Assembly (NCBI GenBank): GCA_017502085.1
Contig: JAFVVQ010000044.1
Span: 1 to 64,000 of the forward strand
Source: Clostridia bacterium
GTDB taxonomy: Bacteria; Bacillota; Clostridia; Oscillospirales; Acutalibacteraceae
Reading direction: 5' to 3'
Length of the DNA stretch: 64,000 nucleotides
In this document: piece by piece, positions 12,666 to 39,270 of the stretch
Layout: each line of letters begins with the position of its first letter
Numbering within the stretch: the stretch's first letter is position 1
Translations under genes and position numbers: made by a program
Notes under the pieces: model-generated
Told to the model about the DNA's origin: nothing
Database searches by the model: none
The model's input: only the letters and a program-made list of their open reading frames with translations

Positions 12666-14816
12666 TTAATTGGAAAGCTTTGCCGTCTGGCGTTGCGCCA
12701 TAACAAGCTTTGCATAAATTCCGTTTTGCATAAGAAGTTCTCTGTGTGTGCCGACCTCGGCAATTCTGCCTTTTTCGATAACGACAAGACGGTCTGCATT
12801 ACGCAGAGTTGAAAGTCTGTGAGCGATGGCAAAAGTTGTTCTGCCCTTGACAAGCTTTGCAAGTGCCTCCTGAATAAGACTCTCGGTTTCGGGGTCAAGC
12901 GCAGACGTTGCTTCGTCAAGGATAAGTATTTCGGGATTTCTCAATACCGCTCTTGCGATTGAAATTCTCTGCCTTTCGCCGCCCGAAAGATTATGTCCGT
13001 CTTCACCGACGATTGTATTATATCCGTCGGGAAGCTTCATAATGAATTCGTGGGCATTTGCCGCCTTTGCCGCCGCAATAACCTCGCTCGGCTCGGCGGT
13101 ATTTCTTGCATAGGCAATGTTATCGTAAATCGTACCCGCAAAGAGGAAGGTCTCCTGAAAAACAACGCCGACCTTTTCTCTGTACGCCGTCTGACGCATA
13201 TCCCTGATATCCTTACCGCCGACGGTTATGCTGCCTGCGTCGGCATCGTAAAGACGCATAATCAGGTTGATGAGAGTTGATTTGCCTGCACCCGAATGAC
13301 CGACAAGACCTATCATTTCACCTTGCTTCACGGTGAGATTGATATCCTTGAGCACGGGCTCATATGCTTTATAACCGAAGCGTACGTCGCTGAAAACAAT
13401 ATCACCGTCAAGCTCAGCAGGTACGGGATTTTCAGCATCCTCCATACTCTGCTTTTCATCGATAACCTCGAAAATTTTGATGAGGCTTGTTGCAACCTCA
13501 CCGAGTCTTCTGGGCAGATTCGAAATCCAGCGCAACGGCTGATATATATAGGCAAGGAACAGAGTGAATTCAAGCAATTCACCAACGGAAATCGTTCCGT
13601 TAACAACCATTCTGCCACCGAAATAAAGCACAAGGAATTCACCGATTCCCATAAAGAATGACAGAAACGGGAATACCCTTGCCCACAACTGCTCGTTACT
13701 TGCCGAAATCTGTGCAAGACGGAAGCATATACTGTCAAATTTTTTGATTTCTCTTTCTTCACTGCCAAAGGTTTTGACAACTCTGATTCCTCTGACAATA
13801 TCGTGAAGCACCGAATTTGACCTTGAATTGCATCTCCACTGTTTTTCATATCGGATATGAATGAATTTCCAGAAACCTCTGATTGCAAGAACAACAAAAG
13901 GTACGGGAACAAACACAAGAAACGTCAGAATCGGGCTGATATTGATGAGAACAATCAGTATTACAATAAACATTATCAGCTTTTCGATGGCGTACATACC
14001 GTGCTCTGTGACAAATCTTCGCACAACCTCAGTATCCTTCGTGACTCTTTTCATCAGGTCGCCCGAAGTTTTCTTTGACATCGACGAAAGCGAAAGTCTC
14101 TGCACCTTATCATAAACCAGAAGGCGCATATCATTTGAAAACCGCGAGCTGATTCTGTTTGTTCTTCTCTGAGAAATAATCGAGAAAAATCTGCCTGCAA
14201 TCTGAGTCAGAGCCATCAGAATAACCAGCATAACGATGCCTCTGATTTTTTCATCCGTTGTCATCGAGGAATTTGCAAGATAACCGTCAAGCAATTTCGC
14301 GTTGAGTACCGGGAGCATTGCTCCGAGTGCCGTTGAAATTGAAAGAAGGATTCCCGAAACCGCAAGACCGCCGAGATACGGCTTTGCCAAGTCAAAGGCA
14401 CGTTTAAAAACATAACTCTTCTCGACGCAGAAAAGGCATACATCGATACCCTTGGGATAGTGTCTGCCGCACTTGGGACATACTCTGAAATCCTCGCGCG
14501 AAAGCTCGGTTTCTTCACCTGTTTTTATATAATGGTTTACAACCTTGCAGAATTCACCGATTTCGTTTGCCTGAGAAAGCGAAAACCGGCAGACGAAAAC
14601 GGAATTTTCCATTTCCGCACCCGCATCCTTCTGCACGAGCTCAAGGCACCCGCATCCGACGTATGAACGCTGGAGAATCTCCTCAATTCCGTCAAGGTTG
14701 TGACTGAAAACGGGTTCTCCGTCGCAGACGGCAATCAGCGTTCCGTTTTCGAAAACAAGTTCGCCGTTGCACAGTTTACCGTCGGCAGTCAGGTCAAACC
14801 GCACTATATTTTGCAT
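12666..14816 (-). CDS. ABC exporter half-transporter with N-terminal extension and zinc ribbon
   Basis: Membrane exporter subunit of 716 residues, much longer than a normal half-transporter (~580). Residues 1-110 form a soluble extension of unknown fold. CPKCGRHYPKGIDVCLFC (about 125-142) is a zinc ribbon, then six membrane segments (about 160-430). The nucleotide-binding domain is complete: GLVGHSGAGKSTL, VFQETFLFAG, LSGGERQRISIARAV, ILILDEATSALD, AIAHRLSTLRNAD. The start is the ATG at 14816 after AAAGGGG; a GTG nine bases upstream is less well placed. Probably pairs with the exporter at 15477-17822 to form a heterodimer. Substrate unknown. Confidence 0.88.
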   Translation of the reverse strand: MQNIVRFDLTADGKLCNGELVFENGTLIAVCDGEPVFSHNLDGIEEILQRSYVGCGCLELVQKDAGAEMENSVFVCRFSLSQANEIGEFCKVVNHYIKTGEETELSREDFRVCPKCGRHYPKGIDVCLFCVEKSYVFKRAFDLAKPYLGGLAVSGILLSISTALGAMLPVLNAKLLDGYLANSSMTTDEKIRGIVMLVILMALTQIAGRFFSIISQRRTNRISSRFSNDMRLLVYDKVQRLSLSSMSKKTSGDLMKRVTKDTEVVRRFVTEHGMYAIEKLIMFIVILIVLINISPILTFLVFVPVPFVVLAIRGFWKFIHIRYEKQWRCNSRSNSVLHDIVRGIRVVKTFGSEEREIKKFDSICFRLAQISASNEQLWARVFPFLSFFMGIGEFLVLYFGGRMVVNGTISVGELLEFTLFLAYIYQPLRWISNLPRRLGEVATSLIKIFEVIDEKQSMEDAENPVPAELDGDIVFSDVRFGYKAYEPVLKDINLTVKQGEMIGLVGHSGAGKSTLINLIMRLYDADAGSITVGGKDIRDMRQTAYREKVGVVFQETFLFAGTIYDNIAYARNTAEPSEVIAAAKAANAHEFIMKLPDGYNTIVGEDGHNLSGGERQRISIARAVLRNPEILILDEATSALDPETESLIQEALAKLVKGRTTFAIAHRLSTLRNADRLVVIEKGRIAEVGTHRELLMQNGIYAKLVMAQRQTAKLSN

Positions 14817-14833
14817 TTTTTTCACCCCTTTGA

Positions 14834-14960
14834 AATGAGTAATGAACAGTGAAAAGTGAATAGTTTCGAGTGGGCTCTGCCCACGCCCGTTTATATTATA
14901 ATCGGTTAAAGGCGTAGCCTTTCCTTATCTTTTCACTCTTCACTTCCGAACTTTTCACTT
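14834..14960. repeat. Short composite inverted repeat in the gap between DUF1854 and ABC genes
   Basis: The left end (14834-14863) contains AGTGAAAAGTGAATAG; the right end (14929-14960) contains the inverse, TTTTCACTCTTCACTT and CTTTTCACTT. Between them lie two perfect small palindromes, GTGGGCTCTGCCCAC (14870-14884) and AAAGGCGTAGCCTTT (14908-14922). The layout resembles a small dispersed palindromic element inserted within the operon. No transposase. Confidence 0.55.
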
Positions 14961-15474
14961 AATAGAGATACGGCTCAAGTTTGCGTCGGCTCTTTGCTTC
15001 GATTGACGCAAAATCCGTTATTCTGTAACGGTTACCGTCGATATCAGTAACATCAATGGCATCACCGTGCTGACGGATACTCTTTGTGATATCCTTGACC
15101 GCAAAAGCTTTTTTGACTCCGCCGATAACAACGTCAAAATAGAAATGTCCCATCTTCTCTTTAATCGATTCAATTTTTTCGATTACGGGGCAATAATAAC
15201 GCTGCGAAAGCTCCGAATTGATAAGCTCCTGTTGCTCAGGAGAGAATGCGGAAATCTTTTCGATAATACCGACCTCGTTTTTCTCGATATCGGAAATGCA
15301 GATATATTCATCGGGTAAAGAAAGCGGCAGCGAACGGGTAAGAATGACTCTTTTATATTCTTTGCCATCAATATCAGCGGCAAGGAATCCGCTGGGATTG
15401 AGCGAAAATACGCATTTTTCGGGTATAACGTACTCCGTACGCAGTGTTTCGGGAGATATGGTGTTGTTACTCAT
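14959..15474 (-). CDS. DUF1854 protein linked to ABC exporters
   Basis: A 171-residue cytosolic protein. It reads as DUF1854 (VILTRSLPLSLPDEYICISD near 45-65, YRITDFASIEAKSRRKLEPY at the end). From memory, members are found next to ABC exporters, including some linked to cyanophycin genes, but no cyanophycin gene is present here. Function unknown. The ATG lies 2 bases after the stop of the ABC gene at 15477 and uses a GGAGG inside that gene's end, so it is translationally coupled. This suggests a dedicated exporter accessory or regulator. Confidence 0.75.
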   Translation of the reverse strand: MSNNTISPETLRTEYVIPEKCVFSLNPSGFLAADIDGKEYKRVILTRSLPLSLPDEYICISDIEKNEVGIIEKISAFSPEQQELINSELSQRYYCPVIEKIESIKEKMGHFYFDVVIGGVKKAFAVKDITKSIRQHGDAIDVTDIDGNRYRITDFASIEAKSRRKLEPYLY

Positions 15475-15476
15475 CT

Positions 15477-17822
15477 TTATTCCTCCTCCGTTTCGGCTTC
15501 GGACGTACCGATTCCGATTGTTTTCAGTGCCTCAGACTGAATCTTATATTGCTTATAGAATTCACCCTTCTGTTTAAGAAGCTCGGAATACGTTCCGTAT
15601 TCGACAATTCTGCCGTTATCGATAACCGCAAGGTAATCGGAATCTCGCAGCGTCGAAAGTCTGTGGGCAATGGCAAGAGTTGTTCTGCCCGCCTTCAGCT
15701 TTGTGAGTGAATTCTGGATGTTTCTTTCAGTTTCGGTATCCATTGCGGCAGTCGCTTCATCGAGAATCAGTATCTTCGGATTCTGAATTATCGTTCTGGC
15801 AATTGAAATTCTCTGCCTTTCACCGCCTGAAAGCTTCTGACCGCCTGCACCGACTCTTGTTTCATATGCATCGGGAAGCTTCATAATGAAATCGTGCGCC
15901 GATGCCGCCTTTGCCGCAGCAATAATTTCGTTCATCGTTGCATCAGGTTTTGCATAGCGGATATTATCGGCAATCGTGCCGATGAAAAGATAAATATCCT
16001 GTGAAACAAGACCGATGTTGCGGCGAAGCTCCGTCAGTTTAAGATCACGCACGTCGATGCCGTCGATCTTGACGTTTCCTTCCTTCGCATCATAAAGCCT
16101 TGCAATAAGGTTCGCAATCGTTGTCTTGCCCGCACCCGTCTTGCCGACGATTCCGAGCATATCACCTGCCTTAACCTCAAGGCTGAGCTTTCTGATAACG
16201 GGTCTTGCGGGTTCATATTCAAACTCAAGTTCGTTGATTTCAATATCTCCGCGCAGATTTTCAAAGCCTACGGCGTTTTCTTTTTCAACAATATCAGGCT
16301 CTGCATCGCAGATTTCGAAAACTCTCTGTGCGGAGTCGGCACACCTTGACCACCAGTTCGATACCCACGAAAGAAAACTGAACGGTCCACGGAGCATTTC
16401 AAGATAGACTATGTAAGTCAGCAGAGTACCTGCAGTCATTTCGCCCTTGGCAACGAGCACACCGCCGAAACCGAGAACAACGGTTGTCAGCATCAGGATG
16501 ACTACCTCAAGAATCGGGAAAAGCGTTGCTTCCGAAACGGTAAGCTTGATTTCGGAATTCATCAGGTCCTCACTTGCCTTGCTGAAGCGGTCAAATTCGT
16601 CATCCTCTTTTGCAAAAGCCTTGATGACGCGCTGACCGTTGATATTATCACTGACCATTGCCGAAACTCTTGCTCCGAAAAGCCAGTTTCTGTGGTGCAT
16701 TCCTCTGAAAAATCTGTCACCGAAAACAAGGGTCACAATAATAATCGGCATTGCAACAATAACTATCAGCGAAAGCTTCCAGCTCATAACAAACATAAGA
16801 ATAAGAACGCCGATAATTGTAGCCGTGTCGATAATAACACTCGGTACACCGTCAACAAAGAACCAATATATATTGTTGGAGTCGCTGATAACTCTTTCCA
16901 TCAGAGAACCCGTCTGTTTGGATGAATAAAAACCTACGGAAAGACGTTGCATTGCTTTAAAAATCTTGACTCTGATATCATATATGACCATTGGCATTAT
17001 GCCGCCGGAAAGATGTTGCTGAATAACGGTGAGTAAAGTATTGAGCAGCTTTACGCCGAAAATCGAAAGCACAAGCACTCCCAGAGCCTTGAGAAGCTCT
17101 GCGGCAGGCAAACCGTCAGGGTTTGCAAGCACGTCGTCAAACAGAGCTCGCGTACTTACCTGCGGAATAAATACGGATACGGCAGAACCGAGCAACATAG
17201 TCGCAATGATTGCAATTATCTGCGGAATATATCCGCCGAAAAATTTGAAAAGTCTGACGGCAACAGCTGAATTCTTGCCGCATTTCTTACAGAAGTCCTT
17301 TCCCGGAGGACAGGGCTTACCGCATTTTTTACACTTTTTATCCTCAGGCTCGGCAGAAGTCGGTATTTCCGCTTCTCCTTTTTCTTTAAAGGAATTAAAT
17401 GCCTTCATCAAGTTGTCAAACTGTCCGATTCTGCCGATAGAAAACTTTACAAGGCTTGTCTGCACACCGTCTTTAACAGAAATGAGTCTGCCCGTTGAAA
17501 CGTATCTCTCGGTTTCGAGTTTGTCTATGTCTTCTATCGGAATCGCGACAATTTCTTCAACCGTATATTTCGGCTCGATATGCTTTTTACCCTTGATTTT
17601 CATAAGCTCCTCGGTACCGTATGCAATATACAGACCTTTTTCGTCAAAGCTGAGCCAGGCACTCCGATAGCAGGCATCGTTATCCATATCACCCGTGCAG
17701 CAGAAAATCAGATTTTCCGTGCATAGACCTGCCTCCTCAAGCTTTTTCAGCAGCAACTCAGGAAACTTATGCCTGTTTTTTTCAATTTGCGGCGATTTGT
17801 CGCGTTTTGGTTTCTTTCCCAT
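15477..17822 (-). CDS. ABC exporter half-transporter with PH-like N-terminus and double zinc ribbon
   Basis: Exporter subunit of 781 residues. Residues 1-150 are a soluble domain with alternating strands that could be PH-like (LSFDEKGLYIAYG, ERYVSTGRLISV). A zinc ribbon, KKCKKCGKPCPPGKDFCKKC, follows at about 170-190, then six membrane segments and a complete nucleotide-binding domain: GIVGKTGAGKTTI, VSQDIYLFIG, LSGGERQRISIARTI, ILILDEATAAMD, AIAHRLSTLRDSD. Both exporters in the operon therefore keep catalytic Glu and His. The start is the second ATG (17822), 8 bases from AGAGG; the first (17828) is too close. First gene of the operon, directly downstream of a terminator-containing leader. 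Substrate unknown; drug, peptide or lipid export are all possible. Confidence 0.88.
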   Translation of the reverse strand: MGKKPKRDKSPQIEKNRHKFPELLLKKLEEAGLCTENLIFCCTGDMDNDACYRSAWLSFDEKGLYIAYGTEELMKIKGKKHIEPKYTVEEIVAIPIEDIDKLETERYVSTGRLISVKDGVQTSLVKFSIGRIGQFDNLMKAFNSFKEKGEAEIPTSAEPEDKKCKKCGKPCPPGKDFCKKCGKNSAVAVRLFKFFGGYIPQIIAIIATMLLGSAVSVFIPQVSTRALFDDVLANPDGLPAAELLKALGVLVLSIFGVKLLNTLLTVIQQHLSGGIMPMVIYDIRVKIFKAMQRLSVGFYSSKQTGSLMERVISDSNNIYWFFVDGVPSVIIDTATIIGVLILMFVMSWKLSLIVIVAMPIIIVTLVFGDRFFRGMHHRNWLFGARVSAMVSDNINGQRVIKAFAKEDDEFDRFSKASEDLMNSEIKLTVSEATLFPILEVVILMLTTVVLGFGGVLVAKGEMTAGTLLTYIVYLEMLRGPFSFLSWVSNWWSRCADSAQRVFEICDAEPDIVEKENAVGFENLRGDIEINELEFEYEPARPVIRKLSLEVKAGDMLGIVGKTGAGKTTIANLIARLYDAKEGNVKIDGIDVRDLKLTELRRNIGLVSQDIYLFIGTIADNIRYAKPDATMNEIIAAAKAASAHDFIMKLPDAYETRVGAGGQKLSGGERQRISIARTIIQNPKILILDEATAAMDTETERNIQNSLTKLKAGRTTLAIAHRLSTLRDSDYLAVIDNGRIVEYGTYSELLKQKGEFYKQYKIQSEALKTIGIGTSEAETEEE

Positions 17823-17839
17823 TTTCATTACCTCTTTAT

Positions 17840-17990
17840 AAAAAACAAAAACTGCGCTTTCCGGTAAAGAAAGCGCAGTTATAATGCAAAAACCTGAAAA
17901 AAATCAGAGGGTCTGCGGACACAACGCTTTACCGAAAAAAACGACTGACATTCTGACTGACATCCGGTCCGCCCCCTTTCATATTTTTCT
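17840..17990 (-). promoter_or_regulatory. Transcription-attenuation leader of the ABC/DUF1854 operon
   Basis: A ~150-base leader. Its 3' part is an intrinsic terminator (17880-17850, AACTGCGCTTTC / GAAAGCGCAGTT, then a T-run ending about 18 bases before the ATG). The terminator's left arm end plus loop, CTTTACCG, is perfectly complementary to CGGTAAAG (17934-17927) upstream, an obvious antiterminator or loop contact. The 5' part can form GCGGAC/GTCCGC with an outer GGG/CCC. ATGTCAGTC occurs twice. It matches no riboswitch class I know. Control may be by a ligand or by ribosome position on the uORF. Confidence 0.7.
17929..17982 (-). CDS. Possible 17-residue leader peptide
   Basis: ATG at 17982 to TAA at 17931-17929 encodes MKGGGPDVSQNVSRFFR. 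The stop codon lies inside the CGGTAAAG segment that can pair with the terminator loop. A stalled or terminating ribosome could therefore change the fold, as known for bmrB ahead of the bmrCD exporter of Bacillus. The ribosome site is weak (only AAAAAG), which is the main argument against translation. Confidence 0.35.
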   Translation of the reverse strand: MKGGGPDVSQNVSRFFR

Positions 17991-17996
17991 TTTTAG

Positions 17997-18026
17997 AGTA
18001 TATACCTTATTTATGGCATTTGTCAA
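17997..18026 (-). promoter_or_regulatory. Promoter of the ABC/DUF1854 operon leader
   Basis: Minus strand TTGACA (18026-18021) and TATACT (18002-17997) with an 18-base spacer, or TATATA with 16. Transcription would begin near 17990, just ahead of the uORF. Confidence 0.75.
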
Positions 18027-20576: not shown

Positions 20577-20583
20577 AAAAATA

Positions 20584-20610
20584 AACCCTCGGATGACCGA
20601 GGGTTTTGTT
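20584..20610. terminator. Bidirectional terminator
   Basis: AACCCTCGG-ATGA-CCGAGGGTT with T-rich sequence on both sides, shared by the convergent genes at 19899 and 20615. Confidence 0.85.
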
Positions 20611-37099: not shown

Positions 37100-37248
37100 A
37101 AGAGAGCTTTGCCTTGGTCATATGGCGGCAGGCAGACTGTGGCGCACAAAATTGTCCGCTTAATGCTGCTCGGTTCACCCGCCTGACATGGTTCACGGTA
37201 TCCTGTCGCACAGGACCCACACGCCACATGACCAAAATAAAGCTCTGC
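37100..37248 (-). ncRNA. ffs: Signal recognition particle RNA (small bacterial type)
   Basis: The minus strand has the conserved domain IV: GTCAGG, a hairpin CGGGTGAACCG with a GTGA tetraloop, then AGCAGC. The closing helix is GGTCATGTGGCG (37233-37222) with CGCCATATGACC (37127-37116), extended by AGAGCTTT with AAAGCTCT (37246-37239 and 37110-37103). TCTTTTC follows as terminator. There is no Alu domain as in Bacillus 6S-like scRNA; the length suits the short form. Ends are approximate. Confidence 0.85.
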
Positions 37249-39163: not shown

Positions 39164-39175
39164 AAACTGCAATTA

Positions 39176-39258
39176 TGCCTTTTCCTACGCCCGCATTATC
39201 GGGATCAGGTTTGAGGGTATAATCTCAGCCGACTCAGGTCAGCACCCCTGTGGTTTTC
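39176..39258 (-). promoter_or_regulatory. TPP riboswitch (THI element)
   Basis: The minus strand carries ACAGGGGTGCT, GGCTGAGAT, ACCCTC, AACCTGATC, and GCGTAGG in order, the conserved TPP aptamer. It is followed by a terminator, so thiamine pyrophosphate should switch thiT off. Confidence 0.95.
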
Positions 39259-39270
39259 GTTTGTGAGGGT

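Follow-up and report, generated by a model that had tools for sequence, protein, structure and literature searches.

Ribosome-mediated attenuators have, to our knowledge, usually been described singly, gene by gene. Their working mode is already known, and several described systems come close to the leader reported here. In the account of the Bacillus subtilis vmlR leader given by PMC9226507, an upstream ORF (uORF) lies within an anti-antiterminator and an antiterminator competes with an intrinsic terminator, as in our leader; the Shine-Dalgarno (SD) sequence and the start codon are both required, and the inducers lincomycin and retapamulin are reported to stall initiating ribosomes (PMC9226507; also PMC12121999). 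Compared by layout rather than by sequence, vmlR differs in its three-codon uORF and in its single, ABC-F target. In the same account the SD of the uORF is predicted to be single-stranded and an extra hairpin masks the SD of vmlR itself (PMC9226507); the inclusion of the uORF SD/start region in the anti-antiterminator sets the present family apart from this description.

The rli80-hflXr leader of Listeria, as described in PMC6310831, presents a uORF, an anti-antiterminator, an antiterminator and a terminator in the same order as ours. Mutating the uORF start leaves this system off, and mutating the anti-antiterminator produces constitutive read-through (PMC6310831). It differs in having an RLR motif in the peptide, absent from the family described below, and in serving one target gene; uORFC-6-1, found before hflX in Bacillales, is a further close system (PMC8632094). 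The bmrB-bmrCD system of B. subtilis resembles our locus in that a multidrug ABC exporter pair lies behind a leader ORF and is subject to attenuation; PMC4191407 describes three alternative stem-loops and induction by protein-synthesis antibiotics. There, however, the 53-codon ORF contains the terminator, whereas the terminator of the present leader lies past the uORF. The toiL uORF of Escherichia coli topAI is a further likeness: PMC12121999 presents it as a general sensor to which several classes of antibiotics, including ones that act at the start codon, are inputs. In that account it works on translation and Rho rather than on an intrinsic terminator. Finally, the WhiB7 response of mycobacteria to ribosome-targeting drugs also reaches many genes (PMC10727445), and a uORF precedes whiB7 (PMC12121999). 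This response relies on one uORF-bearing regulator acting in trans; the leaders described here act in cis, one for each gene.

What is new in the present work is a multi-gene, cis-distributed family of putative ribosome-mediated attenuators. A search limited to the open-access literature found no description of this leader family.

A leader preceding an ABC exporter operon

The leader lies on the minus strand of the window, that is, the whole 64,000-nt stretch of a Clostridia bacterium contig (JAFVVQ010000044.1, assembly GCA_017502085.1) that was analysed. Its elements and the genes following it are:

18026-17997, minus strand: promoter, with -35 element TTGACA (18026-18021) and -10 element TATACT (18002-17997)
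17972..17979, minus strand: SD site of the uORF, AAAGGGGG
17967..17972, minus strand: segment A, GCGGAC, 5' strand of helix P1 (minimum-energy fold; pair counts over 82 leaders)
17963-17904, minus strand: uORF of 19 codons, ATG at 17963, stop TGA at 17906-17904, predicted peptide MSVRMSVVFFGKALCPQTL
17925..17934, minus strand: segment B, CGGTAAAGCG, 5' strand of the putative antiterminator, within the uORF just before C
17915..17920, minus strand: segment C, GTCCGC, 3' strand of P1, close to the uORF end
17862..17880, minus strand: segment D, terminator 5' arm and loop, partner of B in the putative antiterminator
17840..17862, minus strand: segment E, terminator 3' arm (17862-17850) and T-run (17849-17840)
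15477..17828, minus strand: first regulated gene, ABC exporter of 783 aa (PF00664, PF00005), starting 11 nt past the T-run
14959..15474, minus strand: second gene, DUF1854 protein of 171 aa (PF08909, E 9.9e-31)
12666..14825, minus strand: third gene, second ABC exporter, 719 aa (protein family search)

A preliminary description of this locus had proposed control by attenuation, through a leader that carries an antiterminator and a uORF and resembles bmrB, and the comparison of relatives presented below supports this proposal. The exporter gene is indeed preceded by a good promoter (11 of 12 positions match), from which transcription would start, and by a strong intrinsic terminator located between this promoter and the first ABC gene. 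The terminator, AACTGCGCTTTCT-TTACC-GGAAAGCGCAGTT, contains 13 pairs, 6 of them G-C, between 17880 and 17850, with the T-run reaching 17840. The complementarity reported between an upstream segment, CGGTAAAG (17934-17927), and the arm end and loop of the terminator, CTTTACCG (17869-17862), is present. So is that between GCGGAC (17972-17967) and GTCCGC (17920-17915): the stem that had been thought possible forms in the minimum-energy fold, and P1 of the window leader consists of 6 pairs plus a weak inner part, although an ungapped scan for P1 preferred another segment. What the earlier account did not include is that this stem joins the SD site of the uORF, which segment A touches, to the uORF end. 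The leader fold as a whole has a z of -2.49, with 5 of 200 shuffles as good (minimum-energy folding).

Two elements of that account fared less well. The 17-codon frame taken to be the uORF exists (ATG 17982, TAA 17931-17929) but is not conserved: among the eight further ABC leaders from the genus, five lack its ATG and three have frames of 12, 13 and 69 codons. It was consequently discarded as a functional uORF in favour of the 19-codon frame. Similarly, the ATGTCAGTC repeat does occur twice, but most relatives read ATGACAAT(C/G)AGAATGAA or similar at that place; the repeat is thus not conserved, its weight as a signal is unsupported and it was rejected.

The ABC-DUF1854-ABC operon was considered as a cyanophycin-associated system and this assignment was rejected, the curated cut-offs of NCBIfam NF052233/NF052234 being clearly missed (517.3 and 554.2 of 880 bits; 65.5 of 150). 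No paper naming DUF1854 was found in the open-access literature search. Elsewhere in the window, plain Rfam matches identify a TPP riboswitch (39165-39259) and a bacterial small SRP RNA (37123-37222), and a perfect hairpin with T-rich tails on both strands (20583-20606) is likely to be a shared terminator.

Relatives of the leader

Searching 40 related genomes for homologues of the first ABC protein and reading the upstream regions yielded three other genomes sharing the layout. A pattern scan of the genus detected it in 9 of 45 genomes, its own included, and a reversed control pattern in 0; eight of the nine matches precede a DUF1854-type ABC gene and one a GNAT gene. A ninth ABC leader (L068) came from the covariance model search. 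The eight other ABC leaders of the genus have the same layout with changed letters that mostly remain complementary, and in most ABC relatives the promoter elements TTGACA and TATACT, or close variants of them, are found at an unchanged position. Examples of their uORF peptides are MTIRMNNSKSISSGKVLRPRVF, MTMKMNDNKKTEVLCPQSE and MTRINNSVNAKVLWPQSV. Covariation of CGGTAAAG/CTTTACCG, the check put forward in the preliminary description, is apparent on reading these sequences: the pairing is retained with other letters, some pairs being G-U, as CCTCGGGC/GCCTGAGG, CATCAGAA/TTCTGATG and TGCGAAGG/CTTTCGCG.

A covariance model (R1) was built from 8 ABC leaders. At E <=0.01 it matched 25 of 45 genus genomes; at E <=1e-4 it gave 29 matches in 18 of 45, 8 of them being the model's own sequences. 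All 29 were read, and SD, uORF and terminator are present in every one. Among the 40 matches listed, 11 had E >1e-4; seven of these were read (L078-L084), of which L078 may be real and the rest are chance-like. Three R1 matches lie in the organism's own genome: the window leader, a leader at C18:17628-17781 before a LytTR regulator gene (Pfam), itself followed by membrane protein and ABC-exporter-like genes (named by eye), and one at C62:121609-121739, whose downstream gene matches AAA weakly.

Extending the pattern scan to all genome contigs returned 18 stretches, classified by reading. Eight precede a DUF1854-type ABC gene, 7 of these genomes being already in the genus scan; 4 precede RtcB, 1 a LytTR regulator and 1 another ABC exporter (the last two Pfam-checked), 1 an O-acetylhomoserine sulfhydrylase-like gene, and 3 are without leader. 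Three of the 18 stretches (L042, L047 and L051) were rejected as leaders and look like SD sites of ordinary genes. An exact pattern had only 2 matches over 394 order genomes, one of which (L058) is an ordinary gene start.

A second model (R2) was built from 35 leaders. At E <=1e-4 it matched 49 of the 300 genomes examined from the family, representing 31 of 135 genera and carrying up to four leaders each. From the order, 29 of 345 genomes matched, spread over 28 of 163 genera. The phylum sample of 348 gave just 6 matches, of which 4, all weak, lie outside the order; L158 and L161 look like chance. The two others, L157 (G703:C9:85-244) and L160 (G965:C445:995-1185), belong to other families and have uORFs before ABC ATPase-like genes; they may be distant members or look-alikes. 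Fourteen order and phylum loci were read individually. Most of the named relatives are MAGs labelled Clostridia, Oscillospiraceae or Ruminococcaceae, and many of them come from ruminant gut samples. The leaders measure about 125-190 nt, promoter included.

The leader is therefore one copy of a multi-gene family and not peculiar to DUF1854 operons. Conversely, a tie between leader and DUF1854 operons was rejected, since on reading none was seen upstream in 11 other genus loci (L005-L015); in at least 7 of these (L005-L007, L009-L011, L015) the ABC gene directly follows another gene. Rfam 15 gave no family at gathering score at the window leader or at any of 82 leader loci, three of which were covered via a longer locus of the same place; the best weak match at the window leader had 25.8 bits (cut-off 90, E 0.026). 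A match to a plain known class, which would have counted against the original proposal, was thus not obtained.

Conservation of the helices

Alignment A6 comprises 82 leaders (81 distinct, L046 and L129 being identical in sequence), 35 of which also built the model. Since the alignment was fitted to the model, its pairing figures lean towards structure: over 17 pairs, 95.8% of cells hold standard pairs, compared with 74.6% when shuffled and 41-52% for slid controls, and 271 cells carry two-sided changes against 68 in shuffles (0/500). Two-sided changes occur in 15 of the 17 pairs, and in the terminator helix in 11 of 11 model pairs over the 82 leaders. In the P1 core, changes are mostly one-sided (G-C to G-U), with two-sided changes in 4 of 6 pairs, in few sequences; for P1 position 14/197, four other pairs were mismatched in the family, plus a few elsewhere.

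The slid and shuffled controls, a model-free P1 scan, and the swap and frame tests are less exposed to this fitting. In the model-free scan, the 27 leaders reached 10.04 of 12 pairs, whereas shuffling the target region gave 8.42 (sd 0.12, maximum 8.74), and P1 pairs beyond the core change together (ACAA/TTGT, AAAA/TTTT, AAGA/TTTT). Altogether, the comparison indicates that the A:C and terminator helices covary across the 82 leaders.

For the B:D swap test, 81 of the 82 leaders were parsed and reduced to 43 dissimilar clusters. L092, whose terminator was unparsed, was left out of the swap, folding, frame and peptide tests, and L052 and L149, probably mis-parsed, were kept. Pairing each B with its own D gave a mean of -16.6 kcal/mol against -12.1 kcal/mol with a swapped D (43 leaders); none of 20,000 permutations reached the own-D mean, the lowest being -13.9. 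The own D was the best partner for only 7 of 43 leaders and among the top three for 15. Measured against 500 dinucleotide shuffles, 12 of 27 leaders had at most 10 shuffles as good and 10 had 23 to 46, while B:D was weak in L059 (423), L049 (199), L086 (108), L046 (93) and L057 (79). The window leader taken alone is moderately unusual (31 of 500 shuffles as good), its own D ranking 6th of 27 in one swap set and 9th of 43 in another. The strong evidence for B:D pairing thus comes from relatives and their co-changing segments, not from the window leader alone.

The uORF frame

In all 43 cluster representatives, frame 0 from the ATG stays open through C, while the +1 frame does so in 1 and the +2 frame in 19. 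The stop codon lies 4-23 nt past C (median 8), whereas the ATG-C distance varies from 38 to 100 nt, and C occurs in all three codon phases (3, 15 and 25 cases of 43). The position of the stop is therefore roughly fixed relative to the RNA helix and the peptide sequence is not. In the 8 aligned ABC leaders the gaps between start codon and C measure 3 or 9 nt, and a single leader shows a gap of 2 nt inside the uORF, between C and the stop. From this comparison we predict that the leader ORF is translated. The pattern speaks for the ribosome acting as a moving block, and against a peptide- or amino-acid-specific stall.

A model for the leader and its folding with a placed ribosome

The window leader is probably a ribosome-mediated transcription attenuator with an anti-antiterminator and three competing helices, and a member of a cis-acting multi-gene family. 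We envisage that P1 (A:C, the anti-antiterminator) links the uORF SD/start region to the last codons, with B in its loop, and that the antiterminator B:D, when formed, would tie up the terminator (D:E) at its 5' arm and loop. During normal translation of the uORF, the ribosome would cross B and C to the stop codon just past C, occupying B; alternatively, P1 would re-form behind the passing ribosome. In either case the terminator could fold and transcription would end ahead of the exporter genes. A ribosome held at or near the start codon, by a drug or stress, would keep P1 open and B free; free B could capture D during transcription, and RNA polymerase would read through. Stalled ribosomes would then be the signal, those held at the start codon giving the strongest one, and we infer that the leader responds to translation inhibitors.

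In the folding test, the RNA extended to the loop end, with E not yet made, and a ribosome was placed at set positions. Over 43 leaders, the mean number of B:D pairs was 5.3 without a ribosome, 12.5 with a ribosome at the SD/start codon, 6.9 at codon 5 and 5.6 at the stop codon. The start-codon ribosome raised B:D pairs by more than half a pair in 37 of 43 leaders and lowered them in none. Shuffling the uORF interior left 8.5 pairs on average in the start state, and 18 of the 43 leaders were clearly better than their own shuffles. These folding results are in line with a predicted rise of read-through on ribosome stalling. In the full RNA, the terminator outcompetes B:D in most leaders, even with a start-codon ribosome (median probability 0.95); antitermination would thus have to be kinetic, decided while RNA polymerase passes. 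The window leader has 10.4 B:D pairs without a ribosome, 12.1 with a start-codon ribosome and 1.6 with a stop-codon ribosome, so that translation of B may be required to keep it off.

Target genes and recurrence of the unit

As the downstream gene we took the first ORF that reached 75 aa, a rule that may pick the wrong gene in some of the 42 cases (L129 and L046 are one locus); on this basis the proteins include 18 GNAT, 7 with an ABC ATPase domain, 5 LytTR, 2 histidine phosphatases, 2 HAD and single others. Twenty further downstream genes, read singly, comprise 7 GNAT, 3 ABC, 2 methyltransferases, 2 LytTR, one each of RtcB, histidine phosphatase, BNR-repeat protein and weak AAA, and 2 without Pfam match. 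Acetyltransferase (GNAT), exporter, methyltransferase and RtcB targets would be in keeping with protection from drugs that act on the ribosome; for BNR-repeat, phosphatase and TIM-barrel targets the fit is not plain.

The leader was seen before an RtcB RNA ligase gene in four Oscillospiraceae MAGs (L052:217-383, L053:4116-4304, L054:4218-4380 and L057:2151-2308), with uORFs of 27-36 codons; RtcB was Pfam-checked for L054 and recognised by likeness of the protein start in the others. Rtc expression is reported to give transient resistance of E. coli to ribosome-targeting drugs (PMC12606134), and a translation-stress control of RNA repair is possible for these leaders. In L103, L106, L107 and L108, all at contig ends, the gene behind the leader is no more than a few hundred nt away from a 23S rRNA 3' end (three identified by the Rfam 23S model, L106 by eye); genes of this kind may land at the ends of rRNA operons.

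For the commonest leader type, ungapped identities, in which likeness behind gaps is understated, were compared over 18 leaders: they amount to 0.63-0.93 for the leader's first 75 nt, 0.40-0.49 for the preceding 50 nt (promoter), 0.26-0.35 further upstream and 0.30-0.34 past the terminator. This profile indicates that the leader with its promoter is the unit recurring before unrelated genes. The type II leader had no match in plasmids or phages, and its pattern was absent from viral contigs, at the sensitivity used. An origin from a mobile element was rejected, the commonest type being found in no plasmid, phage or viral contig at this sensitivity; the type I pattern occurred in one viral contig, at the start of an ordinary 58-codon ORF.

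Alternative explanations

The uORF could act through its product, as a nascent-peptide-specific sensor in which a particular peptide motif makes the ribosome stall in the presence of a particular drug, like the RLR macrolide leaders. The N-terminus is alike in many peptides, with T at residue 2 in 33 of 43 (in part an effect of the search pattern) and R or K at residue 4 in 21 of 43, and most ABC leaders share (K/E)-x-L-x-P near the uORF end. However, RLR was found in none of the 43 peptides ([RK]-x-[RK] in 15), their middle is free in sequence and in length (16-40 aa), and the C-terminal likeness is a by-product of RNA segments B and C, which are read in differing codon phases. This explanation appears unlikely. 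The combination of uORF and terminator is also the classic layout of amino-acid attenuation, where the uORF would sense charged tRNA, and one leader, at L041:18-225, does have a Cys-rich uORF (MCC, MCCC) before the O-acetylhomoserine sulfhydrylase-like gene (named by eye); it is perhaps a separate cysteine attenuator. No single-amino-acid or codon run is common to the 43 uORFs, however, no residue is doubled in more than 9 of them, and the targets do not form the biosynthesis of one amino acid, which makes this reading quite improbable for the family.

Riboswitch targets can include efflux pumps, and the helices are strong, as would suit the new ligand-sensing RNA considered in the preliminary description. 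Yet reading the alignments revealed no conserved unpaired core besides the SD and start codon, and the preservation of the uORF frame in 43 of 43 leaders, together with the lack of an Rfam match at gathering score, goes against a ligand-binding riboswitch in which translation plays no role; we regard it as highly improbable. Least credible is a plain terminator with chance complementarity: the shuffles that reach the B:D energy of the window leader allow for it, but the swap test, the covariation and the frame test contradict it. A ribosome moving along, or held on, the uORF is the reading we retain.

Significance of the leader family

Comparison supports the helices, a conserved uORF frame, B-D co-change and a spread over many genes, and we lean towards the view that, in one order of gut Clostridia, the modular promoter-leader unit generally senses ribosomes that are arrested on the start codon, and has been installed, one gene at a time, ahead of dozens of unrelated genes. 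If so, acetyltransferases, exporters, methyltransferases, RtcB RNA ligase and LytTR regulators would share one control, and these bacteria would possess a translation-stress regulon wired in cis, in which copied leaders do the job of WhiB7. A homologous leader would mark candidate translation-inhibitor-responsive genes in uncultured gut bacteria, proteins without Pfam match included; new candidates can be listed by their leader, and the covariance model is usable for further scans. For DUF1854 exporters and clostridial RtcB, the leader offers a possible regulatory context. Altogether, the occurrence of these leaders before unrelated genes of gut Clostridia suggests a candidate shared alarm for blocked protein synthesis.
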